A DNA stretch of 20,966 bases from a virus (IMGVR_UViG_3300035703_000450:1-20966); one strand, 5' to 3'. Counted from the stretch's first letter, positions 8,303-20,188 are shown. The notes: generated by a model from the sequence alone, not told the origin. Translations and numbers: made by a program.

Positions 8303-9490
8303 CTATTGAGAAAGAGCCTTCCTGAAAAAAGGCATCCAGTGGTCCTGCCAGACTCTCTCAACATCAAACTGCATAGCGAACTCCCTAGCCACTGTGGAAG
8401 TGTCTCTATCGGCCTCGTATGCCTTCTCAAGGGCTTCTACGAGAGAAGCAAGGACCGGAATCTGAAAGAAAGCGCTCTGGGGGGAATCCCAAAATGGCTG
8501 TCCGAGCACCGGAAAGCTGTCAGGGCTCATCAAGTCTGCTGTAGCCGCCCAATCTGATGCAATAGATCTCACGCCACATGCAGCGCTTTCAATAATCGGG
8601 ACACCAAAACCTTCCCCATAGGTTGCCATCCACACCACATCAGAAGCCGTATAGATTGCAGCCATGTCCGCATCACTGTAACCAGTGCGCAACTCATCCC
8701 TGTTAGCGAAAGTCACAGCGGTCTCAGGCACACCAGAAGACTTCATTAGAGTGCCAAGGTGGAAGCCTCCGACAACTGGCAGAACATCAGCGTGAATATA
8801 CAGGTGAGAGTCAGGGTGTTCCTTGTGGAAGATGCCGAAACTGAGGAAGAGCTCAGAAAATCCTTTGCGGTGGACTATCTGGTTTGCCTTGTTCGCCATG
8901 ACAGCTGTCACAAGAAACTTGTCTGCGCCAATCCCCATGAACTCTCTAGTCTTCACACCCCTAAACAGTTGCGTAGGTTTGAAAACTTTAGTGTCAACAG
9001 CATGCGGAATATAGTCAGCCTCAAAACCTGCTGCAGCGAGCTGTCTCTGCCCATGAGGTGCCATAGCAATCGGAGTCACATTGTCTTTCTCTAGAAAGCG
9101 TTTCACCATAGGTGGCATGGTGACATGATCTAGAGGAACCCAAGAATAGATGGGAACCTTAGTTTCCAGGTCGTTGTAAACCCACACATCGTAGAGAGTG
9201 AGCATGAAGTGAGGCAGGTTCTCAAAACCTCTGCGGTGGTGGTCATGCCATAACTCCATCACATCATCAGAGTAAGGTTTGTAACCTTTGGGATAGATCG
9301 GAACATCACCATGCTTGGTCCGGTGTTTCGCAATGTAACCCTCATTGCCATAGTTGGACAGCACACCAACATGAATCCCATGCCGTTTCATACGCTCAAC
9401 CAGCATGCTCACCTGCACTGAATAGCCGGTGGGAAGTCCTGGTGAGTTGGATGCGATAGACACAACACCCTTGAGTTTCTCTATAGCCAT
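8303..9490 (-). CDS. GT4-family glycosyltransferase next to the capsid gene
   Basis: A 395-aa GT-B fold enzyme that transfers a sugar from an activated donor. The N-terminal acceptor domain has the loop SNSPGLPTGYSVQV (about 14-27). The linker contains IPHAVDTKVFKP (about 161-172). The C-terminal donor domain has HRKGFSELFLSF and the family signature YGEGFGVPIIESAACG, giving the E-x7-E pair E293 and E301. The start is set at the ATG (MAIEKLKG). A longer reading to 9523 would run through the terminator stem. It sits between major capsid and connector genes, where capsid-modifying glycosyltransferases are known in some mycobacteriophages. Virion glycosylation is therefore a reasonable but unproven role. 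The terminator upstream should lower its transcription relative to capsid. Confidence 0.85.
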   Translation of the reverse strand: MAIEKLKGVVSIASNSPGLPTGYSVQVSMLVERMKRHGIHVGVLSNYGNEGYIAKHRTKHGDVPIYPKGYKPYSDDVMELWHDHHRRGFENLPHFMLTLYDVWVYNDLETKVPIYSWVPLDHVTMPPMVKRFLEKDNVTPIAMAPHGQRQLAAAGFEADYIPHAVDTKVFKPTQLFRGVKTREFMGIGADKFLVTAVMANKANQIVHRKGFSELFLSFGIFHKEHPDSHLYIHADVLPVVGGFHLGTLMKSSGVPETAVTFANRDELRTGYSDADMAAIYTASDVVWMATYGEGFGVPIIESAACGVRSIASDWAATADLMSPDSFPVLGQPFWDSPQSAFFQIPVLASLVEALEKAYEADRDTSTVAREFAMQFDVERVWQDHWMPFFRKALSQ

Positions 9491-9504
9491 GCGCCCACAA
9501 TAGC

Positions 9505-9541
9505 AAAAACCCCCACCAGTCACTAAGACCGGCAGGGGTTT
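9505..9541 (-). terminator. strong intrinsic terminator after the major capsid gene
   Basis: Read on the minus strand, AAACCCC pairs with GGGGTTT, and inside it CCGGTC pairs with GACTGG (one wobble) around a TTAGT loop. Two wobble pairs join the halves, making a stem of about 15 pairs. It ends in a run of T (GGGGGTTTTT). It lies 21 bases beyond the capsid stop and 14 bases before the GT4 start. Confidence 0.85.
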
Positions 9542-9562: not shown

Positions 9563-10693
9563 TTATGGCATCAAGAGTGCCTTGAGGTGACTGCTTCCGT
9601 TAGCGACAGCGGCTCCTAGGCGGTAGGTGTACCTGAAGCCAGTGATGTCATTGGCAAAATATGCCTGATCGCTCACTGCGACTGACAAACCGGTTTGCAC
9701 GATTTTCACGCTCGGCCAATGTCCGAAGAAGACTGGCTTGTTTCCGGAGGCAATGCTTGCTACAGCCGGATTGACAATCACTGGGATGCCAAGGATGGTC
9801 GAAGGACCACCAGTGACAACATCCAAGATGTATTGTCCATCCGATGTCTTGAGCTTGCGAATCGCACCCAGCGTGGAGTTGTTCACCATGTAGGCTGCGC
9901 CTGGGAGCTGGCGAACCAGTCCATCAGCGGAGAACTGCAGGTCAATCAGCTCGTCAGCGGTAATCGCCGTAGCGGTACCAGCGGTACCACCAACACCAGC
10001 AACAGCAGTGACAGCAGCGTGGACAACAGCGTTGACTCGCGTACCGATGGCATTGCCGGCCTGTTCAGCAAGGCTGTTCTCCAATGGAAACCCAACATCT
10101 GAGAGAAGCTCATTTGCAATCTTCGATATGAAGCCCTGCTTTGCCAAACTAACGAGCAGTGAGGAGTAGGTTCCCTCAGACTCGGAGATAGCAGAACCAG
10201 CAGCTGACTCGGTTGCGGTGGGGTAAGCAGTGACCACAGGAATCCGCAAATCCTCGCCAGAAGTCCTTGTGAAGACCTCAGAGGTCTCAAGGTACGGTCC
10301 AACCAGGCGTGCAAGGCTGTAAACGCGGTCCAAGAACGAAACTGGGACAGTGTTGACAGAGGGAATCAGCGTGGCACGCTGTTCAGTACCGAAGTAGTGC
10401 TCGCGAATCTCTCCACGCGCCATAGCGCGGAAGATCTCCACATCGGAGCGACCCTCAGCAACAGGAGCGAAACCGCGAGAAGCTACAGAAGCCTCAAGAG
10501 CGCGCTCTTCATTGCGGCGTGCAACCTCAAGCGCTTCGTCAGCGCGAGTGATGTCAGCCTCAATGCGGTCAATTTTTTCTAACTCAGCCTGGGAGATTCC
10601 ACGCTTGTCCTGCTCGGCAGCATCCAAAACTTCACGGATCTGCATGGTCAGGTTAGCGCGGACTTCTTCCTGAGTTTTGATGAACTCAGACAT
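9563..10693 (-). CDS. major capsid protein, HK97 fold
   Basis: A 376-aa HK97-type major capsid protein. The N-terminal ~75 residues are a charged coiled coil (AAEQDKRGISQAELEKIDRI onward). This corresponds to the delta domain that acts as an internal scaffold and is normally removed by the prohead protease. The shell domain follows: TLIPSVNTVPVSFLDRV, LRIPVVTAYPT, QGFISKIANELLSD, LGIPVIVNPAV and the C-terminal ITGFRYTYRLGAAVAN. No separate scaffolding gene is seen, in line with a delta-domain system. The start is the ATG after GAAAGGA at six-base spacing, not the open frame extending to 10801, which would cover the leader. It is bracketed by a terminator upstream and another downstream, so it may be a separately boosted transcript. 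Confidence 0.93.
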   Translation of the reverse strand: MSEFIKTQEEVRANLTMQIREVLDAAEQDKRGISQAELEKIDRIEADITRADEALEVARRNEERALEASVASRGFAPVAEGRSDVEIFRAMARGEIREHYFGTEQRATLIPSVNTVPVSFLDRVYSLARLVGPYLETSEVFTRTSGEDLRIPVVTAYPTATESAAGSAISESEGTYSSLLVSLAKQGFISKIANELLSDVGFPLENSLAEQAGNAIGTRVNAVVHAAVTAVAGVGGTAGTATAITADELIDLQFSADGLVRQLPGAAYMVNNSTLGAIRKLKTSDGQYILDVVTGGPSTILGIPVIVNPAVASIASGNKPVFFGHWPSVKIVQTGLSVAVSDQAYFANDITGFRYTYRLGAAVANGSSHLKALLMP

Positions 10694-10825
10694 GTAATGT
10701 CCTTTCAATAATGATTGTGATTGTGTGGTAGCGCTGCGGTGGTGACACTCAACAGCTCTCAGCAGCGGTAACGCACAAATCTGATATCTCAATAGTACCA
10801 AGTAAGGCTTACCTTACTGCTGGAA
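10694..10825 (-). promoter_or_regulatory. capsid leader with promoter-like element and palindrome
   Basis: This space holds no gene. A -10-like hexamer TACTAT lies at 10797-10792. Just upstream, where a -35 would be, is an interrupted palindrome AGTAAGG-TAAG-CCTTACT at 10819-10802, which could be an operator or activator site. No TTGACA-like -35 is present. Transcription from here would give a leader of about 90 bases. That leader contains a weak stem (CGCTGC/GCAGCG, 10767-10762 with 10737-10732) and the capsid ribosome site GAAAGGA. The promoter call is inference. Confidence 0.42.
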
Positions 10826-10875: not shown

Positions 10876-11091
10876 CTATCGCTGTTCAACAGCCCCAAGA
10901 ACGCGAGTCTCTTTTTCTCGCTGCTGAACTGTACCCTGAACAGGGCTCACCCTCTTTGGTGTGTCAGCAGGATCCTCATCCAACGCGACAATGGCATCAG
11001 CGAAAGCCCCAGCCATCTCCCTAATCACACCAGAGACAGGATTCCCAGCAACATCAAGAATGGCCTGCTCAATGTCATTCCTGGAAGCCAT
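10876..11091 (-). CDS. small conserved protein between protease and capsid
   Basis: A 71-aa protein: MASRNDIEQAILDVAGNPVS, then GVIREMAGAFADAIVALDED, a linker, and a charged end KETRVLGAVEQR. I recall similar small proteins (IE-x-A-I-x-x-V-A-GNP near the start, KETRV near the end) next to head genes of actinophages, but no function is established to my knowledge. A head assembly or scaffold helper role is inference from position. The ATG overlaps the protease stop in CTAATGGC. The gene ends just before a terminator. Confidence 0.68.
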   Translation of the reverse strand: MASRNDIEQAILDVAGNPVSGVIREMAGAFADAIVALDEDPADTPKRVSPVQGTVQQREKETRVLGAVEQR

Positions 11092-13022
11092 TAGTAACCC
11101 ATCAAAAGTTGCAGCTTCTTCTTCTTCAAAGCCAGCATCTCTAAACCATTGTCAAGCTGTGCAGGTGCCTCAACCGGTGCAAGCTTGTCCAAAACTGTTG
11201 TGATCAGGTTGCGGTCATCGGTTGTGATGTCCTCACCGTTCTCAATCTTCAACAGAGCATCAGCAAGAGCATCAGCATCAACCTCTGCGCGCTTCGCAAC
11301 CTTGTCCAAACCTCGGACCGCTGTGGAGCCTGCTGTGGCTGGGTAGGCAGGGAATGACACAATGCTGACCTCCCTGAGAACTACCTTCTTGAGAGTCCTC
11401 ACAGAGCCGTCAACAGACCACTCATCACCACCGCGTGCAACAGTGAAGCCGAAACTCATAGAGTCAACGATTCCTGTGGAAACAAGCTCTCGGACATCAT
11501 TGCCAAGAGTAGTGCGTGGCAGCACTGCGTGAACATACAAGCCCCTGTCATCTTCTGTCAGGCGAAGATTGCCGGCGCGAGTAGATCCGAGCACCTGCCC
11601 TGTGTCATGGTTCCACAACAATTTGATGTCGTTGCGGTTGCGCAAAGAACCTCGGAAAGCTCCTGGCTCAATACGCTCAATGAAAGGCAAAGGCTCACTG
11701 TCACTGTTGAAGACTGCAGCGTAACCAGTGAAGGTCATGCCCTCCGGTGTTTCACGCAGTTCAAACTGTGCTGGATTGATGCGTGTTTCCATCTTGCTCA
11801 ATGCTTCGCCTTTCGCGCGACCTTCATTCTCTGCTTCTATTCTACCAATCACGCCATCCGCGTAGTCCATAGCGCGTTGCGCAGACCGTCTAGTGGTGCC
11901 ACCACCCCAAAGAGCGATAGCGACAACACCAGGGCTGGGGAAGCCATCACTGGTAGGTGAGGCGGCTGGTGCATCAAAGTCCACCATGTGCCTTGCAAGG
12001 AAAGCTCTGATGCGCACCCACTTGTCAGCTGTGACCGAACCATCAGCCATAGCCCTAGCTTCACGCACTGTTGCAGGCATCAAACCGTCACCAGACAGGC
12101 CAGCCTCATGCCATTGCAAACCCCTCCGAGCGCTTGCACGCATGTAAGCCGGTGGAGTCAAGTCAACCTGGCGAATCTCAGAACGCTCATCCAGCCGGTC
12201 AATCAAAGTAAGGGTGCTGAATCTGTGACCGACAAGAGTGTCAGTGGGATTCCACTCCATCATGCCCTCATCGTTCTCAGACTCACGCCACACCCTGATA
12301 AGCGCTGCAGGGTTGTCCTCAGAACCATTGATTACAAAGTCACTGTCAGGCACATTGATCTGACCGTCAATCACAATCCGAGTTATCTGGCCCCGAGCCA
12401 TACCACCTGAAGAGTCCCACTCCACAAAGTCACCAACAGAAAGCTCACCAGGTTCAGCTCGGTCCTCACCCTCAACATCAGGCACCTCATCAGTAGCTAA
12501 AGCAGTAATCCCAAGCGCTCGGAATCTCTCGCGGTTCTCAGGATCATCATCAACAGCGACCATGACATTGTAAGTTTCCAGAAGCCTCTCGGCCACAGCC
12601 TGCTTGAAGTCCGGTGTGACAGTGTTCACGCTCGGCTGCATAATCAGCTGGTCAAAGTCAATGTCTAAAGAGTCAAGCTCGGTCACAGTTTCTTCCCTGC
12701 GATCTTCAGCGCGACCAGTCACAATGATGACCTCAGTGTCATCGAAAGACTCCACATAGTTCACCACGCGGTCATTGCGCATACCATCCACAATGAGAGT
12801 GCCGTCAATGTCCACAATCACTGCAGGCGGTCCAGAGTCAAGGCGCTTCTCAGAGCGCTCGCCCTCAAAAGTTGAATCCTCAGACAACGCAATCGCAACA
12901 CCCTGGTCAATAGCCTCATCCTTAGTGGCATGGCAGCCCATAACTTCGCCGTCCTCTTTCACAGTCGCATACTCCCCCACAGCACAGCCAGGATTGTTCT
13001 CTTCAATGTAATAAGGAGCCAT
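11091..13022 (-). CDS. multidomain prohead protease with embedded HAD phosphatase domain
   Basis: A 643-aa protein, about three times the usual length of an S78 prohead protease. Modules in order: residues 1-50, a small Cys-containing domain (NPGC...VMGCHATKDEA); 66-176, a HAD phosphatase domain with motif I DIDGT (D71, D73), motif II VTGR (T102), a Lys at K140 and motif IV VDDD (D158-D160); 195-277, an Hva1/TUDOR-like domain (GDFVEWDSSGGMARGQI...VGHRFSTL); 288-398, a helical phage domain (GLSGDGL, RHMVDFDAP); 411-570, an S78 protease with H472 (LLWNHD), the Ser motif DSMSFGF (S521/S523) and LREVSIVSFPAY; then an acidic and Lys-rich tail. All HAD key residues are present. It lies between portal and capsid, as a prohead protease should. 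The protein may be self-cleaved into parts. An in-frame ATG at 11792 could start a protease-only form. Confidence 0.9.
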   Translation of the reverse strand: MAPYYIEENNPGCAVGEYATVKEDGEVMGCHATKDEAIDQGVAIALSEDSTFEGERSEKRLDSGPPAVIVDIDGTLIVDGMRNDRVVNYVESFDDTEVIIVTGRAEDRREETVTELDSLDIDFDQLIMQPSVNTVTPDFKQAVAERLLETYNVMVAVDDDPENRERFRALGITALATDEVPDVEGEDRAEPGELSVGDFVEWDSSGGMARGQITRIVIDGQINVPDSDFVINGSEDNPAALIRVWRESENDEGMMEWNPTDTLVGHRFSTLTLIDRLDERSEIRQVDLTPPAYMRASARRGLQWHEAGLSGDGLMPATVREARAMADGSVTADKWVRIRAFLARHMVDFDAPAASPTSDGFPSPGVVAIALWGGGTTRRSAQRAMDYADGVIGRIEAENEGRAKGEALSKMETRINPAQFELRETPEGMTFTGYAAVFNSDSEPLPFIERIEPGAFRGSLRNRNDIKLLWNHDTGQVLGSTRAGNLRLTEDDRGLYVHAVLPRTTLGNDVRELVSTGIVDSMSFGFTVARGGDEWSVDGSVRTLKKVVLREVSIVSFPAYPATAGSTAVRGLDKVAKRAEVDADALADALLKIENGEDITTDDRNLITTVLDKLAPVEAPAQLDNGLEMLALKKKKLQLLMGY

Positions 13023-13297
13023 TAGTCAACCTGTCTAATATCCAAAACGCTTGCCACAGTTGCAGTGTGATTGGAGATGGCAAACAGTCTGTCATTGGGC
13101 TGCAGGATTAGTGTCAATGTTTCCTGGGGACCAAGGCGCAAACCATCAGAAGTTGTAACCGCTGAACCGCCCAGAAAGAGGACATGCGCGTTGTCATTGT
13201 TATTGTTGTGAACATGCACCTGGTGTGGCATGTTATCAGCGCCGACAATCTCAGCAACAGCTGTTCCAATAGTGACCTGACGATTTTCTAAAGGCAT
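13022..13297 (-). CDS. small beta-rich protein between portal and protease
   Basis: A 91-aa protein with a middle VHVHNNNNDNAHVLFLGGSA, then VTTSDGLRLGPQETLTLIL and a terminal VASVLDIRQVD. The alternation of short strands and G/N turns suggests a compact beta sandwich. Similar sequences (N-x-x-x-x-H-V-x-x-GGS-x-VTTS-x-G-x-x-L, then LFAIS) occur as small unknown or decoration-like proteins in diverse phages, from memory. No catalytic motif is visible. The ATG at 13297 overlaps the portal stop (TGATG), with GAGG seven bases upstream. A GTG one codon earlier is possible. It ends in CTAATGGC at the protease start. Confidence 0.68.
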   Translation of the reverse strand: MPLENRQVTIGTAVAEIVGADNMPHQVHVHNNNNDNAHVLFLGGSAVTTSDGLRLGPQETLTLILQPNDRLFAISNHTATVASVLDIRQVD

Positions 13298-14664
13298 CAC
13301 TGCACCTCATCCTTGTAAACGCTGTCTGGGTTTGCAGGATCTACTTGTGCCACACCCTGCAACTGCACTGAAGGCAAACCAGTGTGAGCAACCGGTGGCA
13401 AACCAATCATCTCCATAGCCTCCGCAGGACTGAAGCCAGCAAACACTAGATCGCGGACCATCTGGACCTTCTCACGCTGTGCGCGCACACCAGACTCAGA
13501 CAAGTTCACATTAGCGAGAGGCACGCGGACCTGGGAGGCTGCTTCGCCTTCCTGAGCTTCCAAGTCTTCCCAGCCCCTGATGTCGTTGATGGTGAGGAAG
13601 CCAGACTGGATGCCTGTGGAGTAGGCAGAGAATCTTGACTGAATATCTGCTCGCAGAAGACCATTCATGTTGAAGCGCAAGAAGGCATCAGCGCCACCAG
13701 GGTAGCGAGACAGGAGAGGGGTGAACGATTCCTCTAATAAAGTGGTATATGGCCTGAGCGTATGGGTGACGAATCCGAGCATATTCTGCTCAACACTGGA
13801 ATAGGTGTTGGTCCCTGGCAGATTCAGCATGTGAGAAGGAATACGCCAAATCCTGGCAACATCCTCCACAGCCATCCTGCGAGCCTCAAGCGCTTGCGAC
13901 TTCTCGGGATCTGCTTGGGTTGCTTTGAAAGTCGCACCACCAGACAGGATTCCAGTCCGGCCAGACTTTCTCCAGCCCTTGTGAGCGTTGTCGAAAGAGT
14001 TGCGCAGAGACTCTGCCTGCTCCTGAGTCAAAGCGTTAGGGTACTCAATGACACCCTGGAGTGTGGTCGAATTGCCGAAGAAATTGGCAGCGTACATCTC
14101 AAGGCTCTTACCTAAAGCCAGATTCTCCTTCATGGCCGTCACCCTGGACACACCCCTGATGGTGCCAGGCTTCAAAAGGTCAGGGATATAGATGACTTCC
14201 TCGGAGCTCAGAGGCTTATCTTCACCGACAACAGTGAACATGAGCCGGCCCAATCCATTCCTGGAGACCTCCACCTGATGCGGATTCAACACCACAAGGT
14301 TCACGATTTGGCCTGCCCTATTGCTGAAAATCCGTATAAATGCGTTGCCATCAATCAAAAGACTGACAAGAACGCTCTTATAGAAAGTGCTGTGACCAGG
14401 GAAGTTCACATCAGGCTGTGCAACCCAAGAAGGCTTAGGTCTGAACAATTCGCGGTTGCCGCCATCGCGGTAGTAAACATCTACCGGCAGTGTGCCAATA
14501 GTGTCACTGATAAGAGACACCGCAGACCAGACAGCTGCGATCTGGTAGGCATTGTCCTCATTGACATAAGTCCCAGCAACACTGCTAAATACAATGTCAT
14601 CACCAGTCTCAAAGATTGTCTGGAAACTGATTGCCCTGTCTTCCCAAAGTTTGTTGAATACCAC
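13297..14664 (-). CDS. portal protein, HK97 type
   Basis: A 455-aa portal, the dodecameric ring through which DNA is packaged and ejected. Family features are clear: YQIAAVWSAVSLISDTIGTL near the N-terminus, LLIDGNAFIRI, HQVEVSRNGLGRLMF, the LALGKSLEMYAANFFGNSTT helix, RMAVEDVARIWRIPSHML and TYSSVEQNMLGFVTHTLRP. The C-terminal quarter (VFAGFSPAEAMEMIGLPPV) is the usual flexible tail. The start is GTG directly after the TAA of the small membrane protein (TAAGTG), with GGGG a few bases upstream. It lies between the terminase and the prohead protease, the standard order. Confidence 0.94.
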   Translation of the reverse strand: MVFNKLWEDRAISFQTIFETGDDIVFSSVAGTYVNEDNAYQIAAVWSAVSLISDTIGTLPVDVYYRDGGNRELFRPKPSWVAQPDVNFPGHSTFYKSVLVSLLIDGNAFIRIFSNRAGQIVNLVVLNPHQVEVSRNGLGRLMFTVVGEDKPLSSEEVIYIPDLLKPGTIRGVSRVTAMKENLALGKSLEMYAANFFGNSTTLQGVIEYPNALTQEQAESLRNSFDNAHKGWRKSGRTGILSGGATFKATQADPEKSQALEARRMAVEDVARIWRIPSHMLNLPGTNTYSSVEQNMLGFVTHTLRPYTTLLEESFTPLLSRYPGGADAFLRFNMNGLLRADIQSRFSAYSTGIQSGFLTINDIRGWEDLEAQEGEAASQVRVPLANVNLSESGVRAQREKVQMVRDLVFAGFSPAEAMEMIGLPPVAHTGLPSVQLQGVAQVDPANPDSVYKDEVQ

Positions 14665-14799: not shown

Positions 14800-16326
14800 C
14801 TATCCAAAGAATTGTGGCACTGGTTCTAGTTTAGCGCCTGTCAGTGCTCTATCTACTGCGAGAATCAGTGCTACCGCCCCATCTATCTTCCTAGGGCTGT
14901 TCCTTGCATCTTTCACAATGCGTGGACCCAGGTTGTCAATCTTAGTGACAGCGTTACTCAAGTGTCTTGCGAGCAAAGGATTACCGTCATGGATCAGCCT
15001 GGACTCCATCACAGCATCAAACACTTTCGCGCAAGCTGGCACCATGCGCCTTGCGCTCGTTGAAGGCCACTCCACAATAGGCACACCCTGCTCCTCCAAA
15101 GCTTGCATAGATCTCTGCCACCGGAACGGGTCGCAAGCAACCTCACGCACTTTAGGGTGAGCCTGGCAGAAGTCCAACACTGTCTGCTCAACCTCCGCAA
15201 TGTCCACGCGCCAATCATCATCATGCAGGTTCAGGTCTTTCTCCCACGCCTTCACCATGAAAACGCGGACAGGGTCATCCGCATCTTTAGGCACAACAGC
15301 ACCCACAATCACTGAAGCATCACCGGAGAAAGAACCGTCAAAACCTAGGACAATCTCATCATCAGGTGATACCTCAAACTCTGCCTCGCAAGCCTCCCAC
15401 GCACCAGAAGGCAACCAAGAAGTCTGCGAGCTCACCCACTGGTTGCAGCGCTTAGTGCGAAACTCCGCCTCCGGTGTTCTCCTCACAGCAGACTCAAAAT
15501 CCGAGACAGCGTTCAGATCCCCAAAGCCAGGATTAGCGATAGCCCAAGTCTCCGGCTTCCGATGGTCTGACTCCTCCGGTGCCTCCCACGCTGCCATGAA
15601 GAAACTTGGATCATCAACTTCACCGCGTGCAACCTTCTGGCCGTATTGGTAGAGGCTGAAACAGATTGAGTCTCGCCCAGTCGAATCCATGCGAACACCA
15701 GCGGTACTGATTGCAATCAGCGTTGACAGCTTCCCACGCGCACCCATAGCTAGAGAGAAAGTGTCATACAGGTCGCGGTTCTTCTGAGCGTGGAGCTCAT
15801 CCATCACCGTCATAGTTGGTGAGAGACCTTCTTTGGAGTAGGCCTCAGCCGATACAACCCGATACACTGAACCCAGTTTAGGAAGCTCAATAGCATCCCG
15901 ATACAGTTTGGTGATTGCCGAAAGGTTAGGGCTTGCCTCAATCATGCGCTTGGCATCTTTGAAAACGATTCTGGCCTGGTCCTTTTCTGCTGCCACGCTG
16001 TAGCACTCCCCTCCAGAAGGACCACAGATAAGACCGTAAAGCGCAATGACAGAACCTAGCGCGCTCTTACCGTTCTTCCTAGGCATCAGGATTAGCTGGG
16101 ACTGGTGTCTGTAGCCGCCATTCTCATAAGCAAAGAGATGCTCCAACAGAGACACCTGCCAAGGTCGCAACACCAAAGGCTCACCAGTGCGACCAGCCAC
16201 CGAATCCTTAGTGATGATGCCGAAAGCCTGAGCAAACTCTGTTACCGGTTCAAGCCTCCTGCCAGCCTCAATCGCCTTCTCAGGAACAGGAGTCAACCAG
16301 CGAGGCGGCCAGCTAGACTGCTCCAT
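14800..16326 (-). CDS. terL: large terminase subunit
   Basis: A 508-aa packaging motor from the start at 16326. Numbering from that start, the ATPase half has Walker A MPRKNGKS at about 81-88, Walker B TVMDE at about 173-177 and the coupling motif STAG at about 207-210. The nuclease half has D330 (GFDGS), D399 (CDPF) and D482 (KIDG) as likely metal-binding acidic residues. It matches the Terminase_1, HK97-like family over its full length. The ATG at 16326 is preferred because GAGGAG lies seven bases upstream. A TTG at 16341 would place that ribosome site inside the gene. The 14-base overlap with the small subunit suggests coupled translation. Confidence 0.95.
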   Translation of the reverse strand: MEQSSWPPRWLTPVPEKAIEAGRRLEPVTEFAQAFGIITKDSVAGRTGEPLVLRPWQVSLLEHLFAYENGGYRHQSQLILMPRKNGKSALGSVIALYGLICGPSGGECYSVAAEKDQARIVFKDAKRMIEASPNLSAITKLYRDAIELPKLGSVYRVVSAEAYSKEGLSPTMTVMDELHAQKNRDLYDTFSLAMGARGKLSTLIAISTAGVRMDSTGRDSICFSLYQYGQKVARGEVDDPSFFMAAWEAPEESDHRKPETWAIANPGFGDLNAVSDFESAVRRTPEAEFRTKRCNQWVSSQTSWLPSGAWEACEAEFEVSPDDEIVLGFDGSFSGDASVIVGAVVPKDADDPVRVFMVKAWEKDLNLHDDDWRVDIAEVEQTVLDFCQAHPKVREVACDPFRWQRSMQALEEQGVPIVEWPSTSARRMVPACAKVFDAVMESRLIHDGNPLLARHLSNAVTKIDNLGPRIVKDARNSPRKIDGAVALILAVDRALTGAKLEPVPQFFG

Positions 16327-16777
16327 CCTCAAACTCCTCAACCCTGTTCGCTCTACGATCCATCAGCTCCTCAAGCTTGGACTTCGCTTTCACCTCAGCC
16401 AGGCCAAGGCGAGACCTATCCGAAGGCGTAAACCCAAGCAACGACAGTGAAGTCTGAATCAACTTCTCAGTCTCCAACAGACTCATGTTCACCGGCCTGT
16501 TAGTTGGATCTCCAAGAAACTCCTCACGCAGAATCTCGCGCCTATCCAAAAGCTCACAACACATCTGCAACAGCTGCGTATCACTGCGAGGACTAATCCA
16601 CATGCCGCCCACCATGTAGATCTCATCCCACAATTGCTGGCCGGCCTCACCCAAAGGTCGCAACGGTTCCCTGAAGCCACCCTCGATAGTCATCAGCTCA
16701 CCCTCGCCAGGCATCGCCCTCTTGCCAGGGTTTCCGAGCTTTCGTTTCAACTCAATCGGCTTCGCAGGATTAGGCAT
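16313..16777 (-). CDS. terS: small terminase subunit, P27 family
   Basis: A 154-aa protein that should recognise the packaging site and deliver DNA to the large subunit. P27-type hallmarks are LKRKLGNPGKR at about 10-20, a helical centre (DTQLLQMCCELLDRREILRE) and the C-terminal LLGFTPSDRSRLGLAEV at about 113-129. The start is the ATG at 16777, with AGAGG seven bases upstream. A TTG ten codons earlier is less likely. It overlaps the preceding kinase gene by eight bases (ATGCCTAA) and the large subunit by 14. Confidence 0.9.
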   Translation of the reverse strand: MPNPAKPIELKRKLGNPGKRAMPGEGELMTIEGGFREPLRPLGEAGQQLWDEIYMVGGMWISPRSDTQLLQMCCELLDRREILREEFLGDPTNRPVNMSLLETEKLIQTSLSLLGFTPSDRSRLGLAEVKAKSKLEELMDRRANRVEEFEDGAV

Positions 16778-17192
16778 GAGCTGTCCTCTTTCCAAAATAG
16801 GTGTCAATCACTTTGCGTGCAATCTTCTGATTAGCCACAGGCCTTTCCTTCAATCTAGTCAGGCACTCAGCCTTGCCAGGATTCATCTCAACGAACCGCG
16901 CACCGGCGTAACGGTAAACAGATCGCTCATCATTGCTCGGATCAGTGTGAATAATCCAAACACCTAAACGCCTCTCAGCCTGAGCAACACCGAGCGCTGC
17001 CTTCACCGCAGCCTTCCGAGCTTCACGCGCAACCAAGCGCACCAAGTCCGAATACTCAAAAGACTCAGTGCCATCAACCGACAACGCCAAAGCAATCCGG
17101 TCCATGTCAACGATGATGTCCCCTGGCTTTGCGCTCTCGCGTATGAAAGTTGACTTGCCACCACAAGGCGGACCAGTCACCACAGTCAACAT
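16770..17192 (-). CDS. P-loop kinase / AAA-like ATPase next to terminase
   Basis: A 140-aa protein whose very N-terminus is a nucleotide-binding loop: MLTVVTGPPCGGKST, Walker A at residues 7-15. IIVDMDRIALAL follows, with D29 and D31 in the place used by polynucleotide- and nucleoside-kinase-like enzymes. Later parts (VWIIHTDPSNDER, RFVEMNPGKAECLTRLKERP) fit the small kinase fold with a lid. Similar proteins stand beside terminase genes in many actinophages, usually called AAA or ATP-binding proteins; their substrate is not known. The ATG at 17192 brings the P-loop to the N-terminus as usual. A TTG at 17210 is possible. The first gene after the non-coding gap. Confidence 0.8.
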   Translation of the reverse strand: MLTVVTGPPCGGKSTFIRESAKPGDIIVDMDRIALALSVDGTESFEYSDLVRLVAREARKAAVKAALGVAQAERRLGVWIIHTDPSNDERSVYRYAGARFVEMNPGKAECLTRLKERPVANQKIARKVIDTYFGKRTAHA

Positions 17193-17434
17193 TGTTCCAG
17201 CGTACCCCAAACCCTTTGAACTGCGGATACCTACAAGGCGGTGGCTACGGGGTGCTGGTGGCTGGCACTAGAGCCATTCACCCCACTCCTGGTAAATGCC
17301 GGTGGTGGTAGTGGCCTGGTTGCAGGGATGCGTCTAGCACGCATGTTCGATTTGTTTACATGCCCTGAACCCTGTGGGGTATAGCTGTTGTGTGACAGTT
17401 GGTGTCTAGGGTGCCTACCCCCTACCCCCCCCTG
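17193..17434 (-). other. non-coding gap, candidate packaging (cos) site
   Basis: This is the longest non-coding stretch of the window (242 bases) and the only one next to the HNH/terminase genes. No open frame with a ribosome site is seen on either strand. At the HNH end the minus strand reads G8, TA, G5, TA, GG (C-runs at 17425-17432 and 17418-17422), enough guanine for unusual DNA structure. At 17341-17363 is an inverted repeat GCATGT...ACATGC with an 11-base spacer. G-rich repeats (GGTGGCT twice) lie at 17230-17265. HNH plus terminase flanks fit a cos region, but no cut site can be named. Confidence 0.45.
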
Positions 17435-17770
17435 CTACCTGGGTGGGGTTGTTTTGTTTCCTTTGCTTTGATTGCAGAAAGCATGAGTGATGGCTAGGGG
17501 TGATGTCGGATCTGATGGGTAGATGTGGTCTGCTTGTCCAGTTCCAGGTGGCACTACCCTGCCACACAGGTAGCAGATACCTCCCCTGGTTTTTAACAGC
17601 ATTGCTTTCTTTCTATATGAGCTGTCATATAGGGTGGCTTTCTTTGCTTTCCTTGCTGGGTCGTTGTCGCGGATTCTATTGCGAGCCTTCTCGCTCTTCA
17701 GGTGGCATGGTCTGCAAGTAGCAGCGCGTGACAGAACCCCACACTCGATGCAAGGTTTGTTGAAGGTCAT
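17435..17770 (-). CDS. HNH endonuclease
   Basis: A 111-aa nuclease. The N-terminus has a zinc ribbon (C7, C10, C19, C22 in CIEC and CRPC). The catalytic part has C66 and C69 (CYLCG), then the HNH core ADHIYPSD (D81, H82), ITHAFCNQSKGNK (H96, C99, N100, K103). In HK97 and related cos phages an HNH protein beside the terminase is needed for specific cutting at the packaging site. The location here, immediately before the non-coding gap and terminase genes, fits that role. The ATG overlaps the GT2 stop in ATGA. A free homing nuclease is the alternative, less likely because the gene is embedded in the operon. Confidence 0.88.
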   Translation of the reverse strand: MTFNKPCIECGVLSRAATCRPCHLKSEKARNRIRDNDPARKAKKATLYDSSYRKKAMLLKTRGGICYLCGRVVPPGTGQADHIYPSDPTSPLAITHAFCNQSKGNKTTPPR

Positions 17771-18429
17771 GGTGTCCAGTCGTTCTCTCTGCGCATAGAC
17801 AACTCCCAGCCTCCTTGTGACTGGTCTCCTTCTCTTTGTTTGCGGTCATACCATGTTTGGTTTCTTTGGAAGGTGGAGCTGTTGCGGAATCTGTAGGTGG
17901 TGTCTGACTTGATGGTGGAGGAGTTGTCATGGTGGGTTTTCACATCCATGTAGTTGATATAGATCGCGTGGTATTCGCACCGTCTCAGGTAATCGGTGTC
18001 TTCAAAGTAGGCAGGGTAGAAAGCTTCATCCCAGAGGCCCACCTTCTGAATTACCTTTTCACCCACAGCGAAAGCGTGGAAGTGAGGGAAGTCTGTCAGC
18101 AGTGTGAGCTCGTCAGGTAGCGCATTGGCAAGCTTCTGCAGTTCCCCAGGGTGAAAGAACATGTCATTAGATGCGATAGTCCAATGAGAGTCCATAGGGA
18201 AGAGCTTGATGCCCAGATTCCATGAAGCTGCCACACCAAGGTTAGATGGCATAGGCAGGTAGGTGGTATGTTCCACACAGTCTGGGATGTCAAGCTGTTG
18301 GTCTTCTTTCACATAGGCTGCACCGTTGTCAATGATGAGCAGGTGGCCGATGGGATAGTCAAGGCTGTTCAACATTCTCTGCAGGAGGTCGTACCGGTTG
18401 AGCACTGGGACAATGAGGTTAGGAATCAT
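17767..18429 (-). CDS. GT2-like glycosyltransferase
   Basis: A 220-aa GT-A fold protein. It opens with LIVPVLNRYDLLQRMLNSLD, the usual nucleotide-sugar binding start of family 2, followed by IDNG (33-36), SNLGVAASWNLGI (62-74), an SND triad at 87-89 in the DxD position, and FEDTDYLRR (142-150) as the catalytic acidic motif. The C-terminal ~45 residues are polar and Asn/Gln/Arg-rich. It is 11 bases overlapped with the methyltransferase and four with the HNH gene. Its partners are three other sugar-related genes just upstream. The acceptor (virion protein, host surface or DNA) is unknown. Confidence 0.8.
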   Translation of the reverse strand: MIPNLIVPVLNRYDLLQRMLNSLDYPIGHLLIIDNGAAYVKEDQQLDIPDCVEHTTYLPMPSNLGVAASWNLGIKLFPMDSHWTIASNDMFFHPGELQKLANALPDELTLLTDFPHFHAFAVGEKVIQKVGLWDEAFYPAYFEDTDYLRRCEYHAIYINYMDVKTHHDNSSTIKSDTTYRFRNSSTFQRNQTWYDRKQREGDQSQGGWELSMRRENDWTP

Positions 18430-18940
18430 TTAGCCCTCCAAAGACGAAGATGTGTGAGAGTTCTTCTGGCTGGTCTTCAAGATGCAACAGTTTGCAATCT
18501 GAGAACAGTGTCATGATGTCTTCAACTGTGAAGTCTTGCAGGTGAAACGGATTGACATGTTTGGTAGGTCTTGTCGGTACTGATACCAGGATGATGCGTT
18601 TAGTTTGCTTCAGCACTGACACAAGATGGGCTGGGTTTGGTAGGTGCTCCAGGGTTTCAAAGCAGACAGCAACATCAAACTGTTCGTGTGGTTGCCAGGT
18701 CATTAGATCTACACCGCAATGGAATCTGCCAAAGCTGGTGAACTCTTGCTCTGGAGTTATCTTGTCCACGCCCAGATAGTCAACGCTTACCCTGTCTGCG
18801 ATCAGCTTGGCACCGTAGCCGACACCGCAAGCAACATCAAGAACCTTGTCACCAGGTTTCATCCAGGATGTGGCCAGTTCATACCGGTAGACATGGCCGG
18901 TCTGCTGTGGGAGTTGCTCCCCTGTTATACGCTCAAACAT
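18419..18940 (-). CDS. SAM-dependent class I methyltransferase
   Basis: A 173-aa protein with a classical Rossmann methyltransferase core: motif I VLDVACGVGYG (33-43), an acidic residue after strand 2 in LGVDK (D59), and FETLEHLPNP (94-103) as the post-motif segment seen in small-molecule and sugar methyltransferases (Methyltransf_11/23 type). No DNA-methylase motif (DPPY or PCQ) is present. Set between glycosyltransferase genes, it may methylate a sugar on the product of this cluster. It overlaps the upstream gene by eight bases and the downstream one by 11. It lacks the long N-terminal domain of larger relatives. Confidence 0.83.
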   Translation of the reverse strand: MFERITGEQLPQQTGHVYRYELATSWMKPGDKVLDVACGVGYGAKLIADRVSVDYLGVDKITPEQEFTSFGRFHCGVDLMTWQPHEQFDVAVCFETLEHLPNPAHLVSVLKQTKRIILVSVPTRPTKHVNPFHLQDFTVEDIMTLFSDCKLLHLEDQPEELSHIFVFGGLNDS

Positions 18941-19592
18941 CTTTAGGGTGCTTCCACCAGGTCAGATAAGGGTTGTGGAACTCTCTGTGAGGGAACATGC
19001 CAAGGTTAGGCTCCAGCTTCCATAGCAGGTAAGGGAAAGATACCTGGTCTTGGATGGACCAGCGCAGGTTCTCCTCATACCAAGCTTGGCCGAAGGTTCT
19101 CGCGCTGTTGTTGTTGCGCCACACAATCGCACCGCAAGCCCACAAGCCGAACTTCTCCGGCATACCCTCAGCCCTGTAATGCTCAGTCTGCTCGCGTATC
19201 GGCCAGTCAGAATACTTAGGCCAGTCCTGACAGAACGCAGCCTCCTGATACAAACAGGATCTATGCCACAAGTCAGGGTGCTCCCACACCATCAAGTCAT
19301 TGTCACCAAGGGATTGCTCGCAGAACTCTCGGAAGCCTTCACCAGTGATCTCGAACGCTGCATCAATCCACACTGCTATCTCTGACTTCACATAATCAAA
19401 AGGGAGCATCTTGGGAGCTTTAGCAGCCAGTCTTGGGTGTTGGTCGCTTGGCATCACAACCATGCGCCAGCCGTCAGCCTGCAGCTCTGGATCATCAGTG
19501 AAGCAGACAGCATCATCGAAACCATGAAACTGTGGCAAAGGTCGCAACGGTTCAAAGTCACCATATAACGCTGTTATGAGTGTGGTTGCCAA
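18933..19592 (-). CDS. DUF616/TOD1-like putative glycosyltransferase
   Basis: A 219-aa protein. TALYGDFEPLRPLP at the start, then AVCFTDDP, W-R-M-V-V, PRLAAKAPKMLPF and SEIAVWIDAAFEI follow the order of the DUF616 (TOD1/MUCI70, glycosyltransferase-like) domain, with the ID-A pair near residue 75 in the DxD-like position. Family knowledge points to a GT-A fold. Direct enzymology in phages is not known to me. The start is uncertain: a TTG at 19592 has GGGGGAA just upstream, another TTG at 19604 has no ribosome site, and both overlap the preceding gene. It lies in a row of overlapping sugar genes. Confidence 0.68.
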   Translation of the reverse strand: MATTLITALYGDFEPLRPLPQFHGFDDAVCFTDDPELQADGWRMVVMPSDQHPRLAAKAPKMLPFDYVKSEIAVWIDAAFEITGEGFREFCEQSLGDNDLMVWEHPDLWHRSCLYQEAAFCQDWPKYSDWPIREQTEHYRAEGMPEKFGLWACGAIVWRNNNSARTFGQAWYEENLRWSIQDQVSFPYLLWKLEPNLGMFPHREFHNPYLTWWKHPKDV

Positions 19593-20188
19593 AAGTTCCC
19601 CCAATATGAGTAACCGTCACGCATGTTCTTCACTGTCGGTTTGTTCAATCCTATCCACCCCTCAGCCTGGTAACGATTGCTTACACTTACAGGTGAAAGT
19701 GTGCGTATATAGTCCGAGCGAGCCCACCAAAAGTTGCCGGCAAAGAAGAAGTCATGATCTACATGCTCTGGCTCCCAAGACTTCAACCAGTAAGGACCAG
19801 CCGCCTCCACCATCGTCAACGCTTTCACGCACTCCTGCCAGCGTGTAACAGTGTCATAAGTCATGGACACTCTCCACTGCCTAGCCAGTTCACTGTTAGA
19901 CCAAGCGCCTTTGGTGTGAGCGTAGAAAATAGCACCATCATCGGTCTGTGCGAAGTCGTGGAGCTTCTGCAGCGTTACTTGCTCCCAGCCTGTTGCGGAC
20001 TCTGCAACACACACACCAGGGAGCTCGGCCTTCACCTTGTCGCGGTTCTCCGATGTCCCTACAATGCCAAGGAATAGATCGTCAAGGTTGTCAATCAAGC
20101 CTGATATGGCCAGCTCTTCAATATGCTCGGTGGCAGGTGTTAGCCAGTCCCCGTCAGCAAAGACATGATAGAAGTGTGTCAGTCTCAC
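19574..20188 (-). CDS. putative glycosyltransferase with HTKG motif
   Basis: A 204-aa protein starting MRLTHFYHVFADGDWLTPAT. Mid-protein motifs are GWEQVTLQKLHDFAQ, FYAHTKGAWSN, FFFAGNFWWARSDYIR and NRYQAEGWIGL. The H-x-K-G element and the GNFWW segment recur in bacterial proteins thought to be glycosyltransferases of capsule or rhamnan type. I recognise the pattern but cannot name a characterised member. The GTG start has GGGGTGA upstream and follows the preceding stop by three bases. It is the first gene of the sugar cluster. The enzyme class is probable, the substrate unknown. Confidence 0.6.
   Translation of the reverse strand: MRLTHFYHVFADGDWLTPATEHIEELAISGLIDNLDDLFLGIVGTSENRDKVKAELPGVCVAESATGWEQVTLQKLHDFAQTDDGAIFYAHTKGAWSNSELARQWRVSMTYDTVTRWQECVKALTMVEAAGPYWLKSWEPEHVDHDFFFAGNFWWARSDYIRTLSPVSVSNRYQAEGWIGLNKPTVKNMRDGYSYWGNFWQPHS

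Follow-up and report, generated by a model that had tools for sequence, protein, structure and literature searches.

A phage prohead protease with a PNKP-type HAD domain in a slot for exchangeable modules

Results

A multidomain protease gene in the head operon

The window analyzed here is the whole 20,966 nt stretch of viral DNA IMGVR_UViG_3300035703_000450:1-20966. Its minus strand carries a head operon encoding, in this order, an HNH nuclease, a P-loop kinase, the small and large terminases, the portal protein, a 92-aa protein, the protease under study, a 71-aa protein, the major capsid protein and a glycosyltransferase (Table 1). The protease gene sits between the portal and major capsid protein genes, as is usual for an HK97-type prohead protease. 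It runs uninterrupted from an ATG start at 13022 down to 11091 and encodes 643 aa, as the initial annotation had proposed. The closest isolate is Pontimonas phage phiPsal1, and matches in bacterial genomes were confined to four contigs of one uncultured Microbacteriaceae MAG; an aquatic member of the actinobacterial family Microbacteriaceae is the most likely host.

Several other genes of the window were recognized, all on the minus strand. The kinase-like ORF overlaps the start of the small terminase gene; annotations of this kinase domain in actinophages name it either small terminase or polynucleotide kinase, and phage BFK20 has it fused to the S78 head protease. A small HNH endonuclease gene (17435-17770), kept in the relatives L004, L006, L036 and L041, precedes the kinase and terminase genes. 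A glycosyltransferase gene (8303-9523) occupies the interval between the capsid and head-tail genes. Judged from the sequence, additional genes for glycosyltransferases and methyltransferases are apparently present upstream of the terminase (17767-19604). Genes of the glycosyltransferase/methyltransferase type likewise follow the capsid gene in phiPsal1. The tail region includes an extremely glycine-rich protein of 359 aa (1489-2568), and an M23 peptidase with a peptidoglycan-binding domain (471-1163) is probably the endolysin.

Table 1. Coordinates of the protease domains, candidate cleavage motifs, neighboring head genes and XkdF-type fusions at other loci
Feature	Residues	Coordinates	Strand	Basis
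643-aa multidomain prohead protease (CDS)	1-643	11091..13022	-	ATG ORF; architecture matched in eight distinct proteins on independent contigs
N-terminal module (NTM), PYYI...C...CH (conserved PY-I, C13, C30-H31)	1-52	12867..13022	-	Alignment, AF2
HAD domain, polynucleotide 3'-phosphatase (PNKP) type	65-178	12489..12830	-	Pfam HAD_PNKP, PHROG, AF2, Foldseek, profile match
Hva1-TUDOR-like domain	188-272	12207..12461	-	Pfam PF11160; AF2 all-beta, high confidence
Helical head-protein domain (HEL)	275-402	11817..12200	-	phrog_80 / phrog_2859
S78 (HK97-type) prohead protease domain	411-600	11223..11792	-	Pfam, TIGR01543, Foldseek, invariant columns
E-D-R before TUDOR, candidate cleavage motif		12459..12467	-	
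E-I-R before HEL, candidate cleavage motif		12171..12179	-	
E-T-R before S78, candidate self-cleavage motif	412-414	11781..11789	-	Invariant in 44-row alignment
Major capsid protein		9563..10801	-	Pfam Phage_capsid
92-aa small gene, no assigned function, portal/protease interval		13022..13300	-	ORF position
Portal protein		13297..14664	-	Pfam Phage_portal, E 4e-76
Large terminase		14800..16341	-	Pfam TerL_ATPase + TerL_nuclease
P-loop kinase, polynucleotide-kinase type, adjoining the small terminase gene		16770..17210	-	phrog_4581, phrog_9644, phrog_505
XkdF-type prohead protease + PNKP-like HAD		L316:305-2125		
XkdF-type prohead protease + Dps		L273:4146-5564		

The protein consists of five modules (Table 1). 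The protease is the last of them and begins near residue 411, in agreement with the initial annotation: residues 423-577 match Pfam Peptidase_S78 (PF04586; E 1e-43, 149.9 bits against a cut-off of 21), and TIGR01543 scores 122.9 bits against a cut-off of 59. The catalytic His and Ser of S78 proteases correspond to H472 and S523, both invariant in the 44 sequences aligned, and Foldseek matched the domain to the T4 gp21 protease (E 8e-4) and weakly to herpesvirus assemblin. The same annotation regarded S78 proteases as normally standing alone, which holds for HK97-type phages; in the present family, by contrast, the protease as a rule carries an N-terminal extension.

The helical domain and TUDOR-like domain that had been placed between HAD and protease were both recovered. 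AF2 predicts helices with high confidence over residues 275-400; the HEL region belongs to phrog_80 and phrog_2859, the former of which (head maturation protease) spans residues 275-593. HEL is also part of capsid or minor head protein chains in Synechococcus, Roseobacter and Nodularia phages. Residues 197-243 match Pfam Hva1_TUDOR above its gathering score (E 9e-6). This domain, which possibly binds nucleic acid, is present too in head-region proteins of Roseobacter phage CRP-811 and Limnohabitans phage DC31. At the N-terminus, NTM is modeled as a small beta-beta-alpha domain (AF2 pLDDT about 92) that may bind metal. NTM is kept in nearly every relative and, in the fetched set, occurs almost only on S78 proteases. 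The initial annotation did not include NTM, nor the interchangeability of the modules, the polynucleotide-3'-phosphatase affinity of HAD and the published concept of polyvalent proteins, which are described below.

The HAD domain resembles polynucleotide 3'-phosphatases

A HAD domain with all four motifs had been assigned to residues 66-176, and Pfam HAD_PNKP matches residues 65-176 above the gathering score (cut-off 27.6 bits), with 28.6 bits and E 2e-6 for the whole protein and 35.8 bits and E 1e-8 for the domain alone. Several relatives score below this cut-off; HAD_PNKP was found in all 26 diverse HAD members. The PHROGs covering the domain are the polynucleotide kinase families phrog_415 and phrog_505. 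The motifs are D71-x-D73, T102-G-R104, K140, the position of which had been given exactly, and D158-D159.

Structure prediction had been suggested as a check on the fold, and AlphaFold modeled the HAD alone, with 26 relatives, as a HAD fold at pLDDT 94.5. In a Foldseek search of the PDB, the best match to this model was the T4 Pnkp 3'-phosphatase (5uj0; E 7e-7, TM 0.78), and the top 12 fold matches were all T4 Pnkp or bacterial Pnkp1. The HAD sequence profile likewise matched Pnkp1 (E 3e-10) and T4 Pnkp (E 3e-5). A first profile had also hit 'Pizza' beta-propellers in the PDB, but these were false positives from summed repeats and disappeared with a larger alignment. The full-length AlphaFold model (pTM 0.32) shows the domains as separate beads and has low confidence over HAD, because the mixed-architecture alignment scrambles this part of the chain; the HAD structure was taken from the single-domain model.

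Among 62 distinct complete HAD-S78 proteins, both Asp residues of motif I, the Thr and Arg of motif II and the Lys of motif III are present in every one, and the motif IV Asp in 61, the remaining protein having Glu. The dN/dS ratio, calculated by the Nei-Gojobori method on pooled pairs, was about 0.10 for HAD, 0.125 for S78, 0.04 for TUDOR and 0.17 for NTM and HEL. HAD is under purifying selection, with dN/dS about as low as that of the protease. Since the catalytic residues are conserved, fold and profile resemble T4 Pnkp and dN/dS is low, the HAD is very probably an active phosphatase. Judged by its family, its substrate is most likely polynucleotide 3'-ends, and these sequence and model comparisons make 3'-phosphatase activity itself probable.

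Kinase and ligase partners

The free kinase encoded next to the small terminase gene and the HAD each match one half of phrog_505. A Pnkp split between this kinase and the HAD on the protease was rejected, as kinase and HAD did not co-occur and no ligase was found. A PNK-type kinase was present at 2 of 9 loci with HAD and 3 of 20 without it (P 0.63), an AAA_33 kinase in 1/10 HAD-containing contigs, and a DNA or RNA ligase in 0/10 of these contigs, which may be fragments. Thus, no complete phage repair pathway is visible, and a host ligase would have to complete repair.

Rapid module turnover between NTM and HEL

Scans of IMG/VR retrieved hundreds of relatives. The initial annotation called for a search for the same fusion in other phages, and the fusion proved to be conserved: the layout of the window protein, NTM-HAD-TUD-HEL-S78, was found in eight distinct proteins on separate metagenome contigs. 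Among 187 distinct complete S78 proteins, the commonest layouts were NTM-TUD-HEL-S78 (50), NTM-HAD-HEL-S78 (39) and NTM-HEL-S78 (18), followed by NTM-CYS-HEL-S78 (16), the window layout (8) and NTM-HAD-DPS-S78 (6); these proteins come from loci fetched with HAD, NTM and Dps as scan queries, so that the counts are enriched for these modules and are no unbiased census. Further layouts contain DUF5824 or DUF3721 modules or have permuted orders, namely NTM-HEL-HAD-S78 and HAD-S78; HAD is placed after HEL in L238 and L242. Outside the S78 proteins, HAD was seen in only a few ORFs of the fetched loci, among them the XkdF fusion of L316.

In a tree of 94 S78 domains, the presence of HAD changes at least 18 times and that of TUDOR at least 20 times; this tree was built quickly, has many weak forks and used rows chosen to keep differing architectures, and it speaks to mosaicism, not to rate. 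Well-supported sister proteases carry unlike modules, for example L096 with HAD and L063 with TUDOR. These results indicate that the constant flanks enclose a slot whose content turns over fast, with HAD, TUDOR, Cys-rich, DUF5824, DUF3721 and Dps/ferritin modules. Because many relatives have no HAD, this domain is dispensable in the long run.

The fusion might have been a sequencing or assembly artefact or an accidental gene fusion, and some loci could be read in this way. In L139 (2390-3732) and L150 (3787-5666), the N-terminal modules, including NTM, and the protease are in separate, slightly overlapping frames, and in L091 a frame break lies within S78. However, the intact fusion is present on dozens of independent contigs; this recurrence rules out assembly error, and we attach next to no probability to an artefactual or accidental origin. 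L139 and L150 represent either genuine split genes or frameshift errors.

Parallel fusions to prohead proteases

A Dps/ferritin domain (PF00210, E about 1e-15) is inserted between HAD and S78 in L125, L126, L265-L269, L271 and L272, and accompanies S78 without HAD in L270; Dps and HAD together are found on S78 in six distinct complete proteins. The XkdF proteins (PF14550, Peptidase_S78_2), unrelated to the S78 proteins, form a second prohead-protease family, one member of which is fused to a PNKP-like HAD (L316) and another to Dps (L273). In Arthrobacter and Microbacterium phages, an XkdF protease encoded beside the MuF and portal genes is fused to a 2H phosphoesterase. Moreover, Corynebacterium phage BFK20 gp5 (phrog_9644) joins a PNK-kinase-like domain to S78, and its record states 'experimentally confirmed presence among structural proteins'. 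Prohead proteases have gained nucleic-acid end-processing enzymes and Dps several separate times. This convergent gain is our strongest argument that the passengers matter.

Probable entry into the prohead and candidate cleavage sites

S78 proteases work inside the prohead, and domains attached to them should therefore be carried in. The best indirect support for entry of the modules comes from CRP-811, in which HEL, TUDOR, S78 and the capsid fold are combined in one 861-aa chain (L003:2884-5469). This chain is annotated merely as major capsid protein. Further indirect support is given by BFK20 gp5, whose kinase-like domain and S78 are recorded in a virion protein, and by HEL in the capsid or minor head chains of other phages. 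The 643-aa protein is probably present in the prohead. The initial annotation had supposed that the protein enters the prohead and is cut apart there, which is plausible. Fragments of HK97-type proteases are able to leave the head, and the passenger therefore need not stay; that it is retained with the genome and delivered is a prospect we put a little below even.

The most enriched spaced pair in the linkers is E-x-R. Before HEL, it was present in 18/22 TUD/HEL, 10/16 HAD/HEL and 13/15 CYS/HEL linkers, compared with 5.6, 2.0 and 4.3, respectively, after shuffling, and before S78 in 66/69 linkers compared with 21. The enrichment was not seen at NTM exits, where 6/18 NTM/TUD linkers contain the motif and 6.2 are expected. 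A universal E-x-R cleavage site, as a pooled count might suggest (237/329 linkers, 92 after shuffling), was rejected since splitting by junction and removal of redundancy left the enrichment only before HEL and S78. The major capsid protein has E-[KQ]-R-[AT] at its presumed delta-domain boundary (10376-10384), and E-[KQRA]-R-[AT] occupies this boundary in 25/26 non-redundant capsid proteins aligned. The sequence pattern is suggestive of cleavage sites shared by linkers and capsid protein, but E-x-R could also be a conserved domain edge.

Discussion

We propose tentatively that the 643-aa protein is a modular head polyprotein through which cargo for healing nucleic-acid ends or protecting the genome is loaded into the prohead, a reading that falls slightly short of an even chance in our estimation. 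S78 and HEL, possibly together with NTM, would direct the chain to the prohead interior. The slot between NTM and HEL would be occupied by exchangeable passengers, here the PNKP-type HAD with its intact catalytic residues and the TUDOR-like domain. During maturation, the protease would probably cut the linkers, with E-x-R as the candidate site, and so release both itself and the passengers. The passenger would stay with the packaged genome and enter the cell with it, where the HAD would strip 3'-phosphates from broken nucleic-acid ends, enabling host enzymes to reseal them. Possible targets are RNA ends produced by host anticodon nucleases or other RNases, or DNA ends from oxidative damage, which likewise leaves 3'-phosphates. 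RNA end healing as a counter-defence, following the logic of T4 Pnkp, is suggested because 2H, kinase and HAD are all of RNA end-healing types, while guarding of DNA against oxidative damage is suggested because Dps is among the passengers.

The passengers might instead act in assembly or packaging, trimming the 3'-phosphate of concatemer or cos ends or dephosphorylating a head protein before being destroyed or lost. The gene is located between the portal and capsid genes, and the PNK-like kinase, which in other phages is joined to the small terminase or bears that annotation, adjoins the small terminase gene here; on this account, end-processing enzymes cluster with packaging genes. However, kinase and HAD do not co-occur, and the exchange of HAD for Dps, TUDOR or Cys-rich modules is easier to reconcile with a dispensable passenger than with a required step, which makes a role in assembly or packaging unlikely. 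The slot domains could also be structural, as inert scaffold, spacer or DNA-organizing modules of enzyme origin that are exchanged regardless of catalysis. Consistent with this, no enzymatic role is known for HEL, TUDOR or the Cys-rich module, the slot is almost unoccupied in the 18 distinct NTM-HEL-S78 proteins, and the predicted full-length structure consists of separate beads. On the other hand, the HAD catalytic residues are kept in 62 otherwise divergent proteins with one conservative change, and HAD has a dN/dS of 0.10. Inert spacers would lose the motifs, which disfavors this reading, and a structural role strikes us as quite improbable.

Another possibility is that the delivered HAD disarms a host immune nucleotide signal or reverses RNase-based abortive infection. 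This would account for the separate fusion of 2H, PNK-kinase-like and PNKP-phosphatase domains, all of RNA-end-processing types, to prohead proteases, and it follows the logic proposed for 2H fused to MuF (Iyer et al. 2017, PMC5512222); the rapid turnover of the slot also resembles an arms race. Pure counter-defence does not accommodate the Dps, Cys-rich and TUDOR passengers, and the substrates of capless PNKP-type HADs are polynucleotide ends, not free cyclic nucleotides; an RNA- or nucleotide-directed counter-defence is, in our view, rather doubtful. Cargo loading for end healing or genome protection remains the reading that we prefer. Its wider form, in which S78 and XkdF/S78_2 proteases of unrelated phages are a general, convergent carrier that gains PNKP phosphatase, PNK-type kinase, 2H and Dps, loads them into every head and frees them by self-cleavage so that repair or protection proteins would be present at the start of infection, is more speculative, and we offer it as a possibility on the less likely side.

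Few proteins have to be placed inside every phage head, and the prohead protease is among them. If it is a carrier, it would provide a simple, general route for loading enzymes into virions and would link RNA/DNA end repair and Dps to virions of phages that infect aquatic actinobacteria. The natural exchange of modules, seen across hundreds of phages, reveals which passengers the carrier tolerates, and HEL with S78 may be considered as a natural capsid-loading tag. In this way, the question of which phage components other than DNA reach the cell becomes testable.

The 643-aa protein shares features with several known systems. Its HAD has the fold and the D-x-D, S/T-x-R, K and D motifs of T4 Pnkp and bacterial Pnkp1, but it is accompanied by no kinase domain, measures about 115 aa compared with about 140 aa, and is attached to a head protease. 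In BFK20 gp5, which is recorded among the structural proteins, a nucleic-acid enzyme-type domain is likewise N-terminal to S78, but it is kinase-like instead of a phosphatase and NTM, TUDOR and HEL are lacking. The phiPsal1 prohead protease (AUV61415) belongs to the same family and gene order and is 62% identical in its NTM and HEL-S78 parts, whereas a Cys-rich HiPIP-like module replaces HAD and TUDOR. As proposed here for the passengers, MuF-fused effectors, which are borne on a head protein, and T4 Alt, which is packaged in the head, are expected to travel with the DNA. Here, the carrier would be the maturation protease and not MuF or a free internal protein, and no toxin-type domain was found, unlike in these systems.

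Polyvalent proteins, described from phages and conjugative elements, combine many disparate domains in one polypeptide and are predicted to be delivered with the DNA. Any assemblin-like peptidase among these domains invariably occupies the C-terminus and has a probable role in virion processing; effectors, including 2H, are found fused to MuF or portal proteins (PMC5512222). The 643-aa protein resembles polyvalent proteins in having several disparate domains and a C-terminal peptidase, delivery being predicted for both. It differs in its carrier, which would be the S78 head protease of the phage itself, and in that the family's passengers are a PNKP-type phosphatase, TUDOR and Dps. The main text of PMC5512222 mentions no phosphatase, Tudor or Dps, and prohead protease appears just in one reference title. 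Literature searches on prohead proteases joined to HAD-superfamily domains and on the prohead protease of Pontimonas phage gave no results, and this polyvalent-protein paper was the sole precedent found for the S78-HAD fusion. The 643-aa protein fits the polyvalent-protein concept; the proposed use of the phage's own head protease as carrier and passengers outside the main text of that paper are new. In addition, two loci (L275:4968-7379 and L280:1899-3971) encode phage proteins of 690-803 aa with Dps at the N-terminus, DUF5824 at the C-terminus and no recognized protease, which are possibly further polyvalent proteins.
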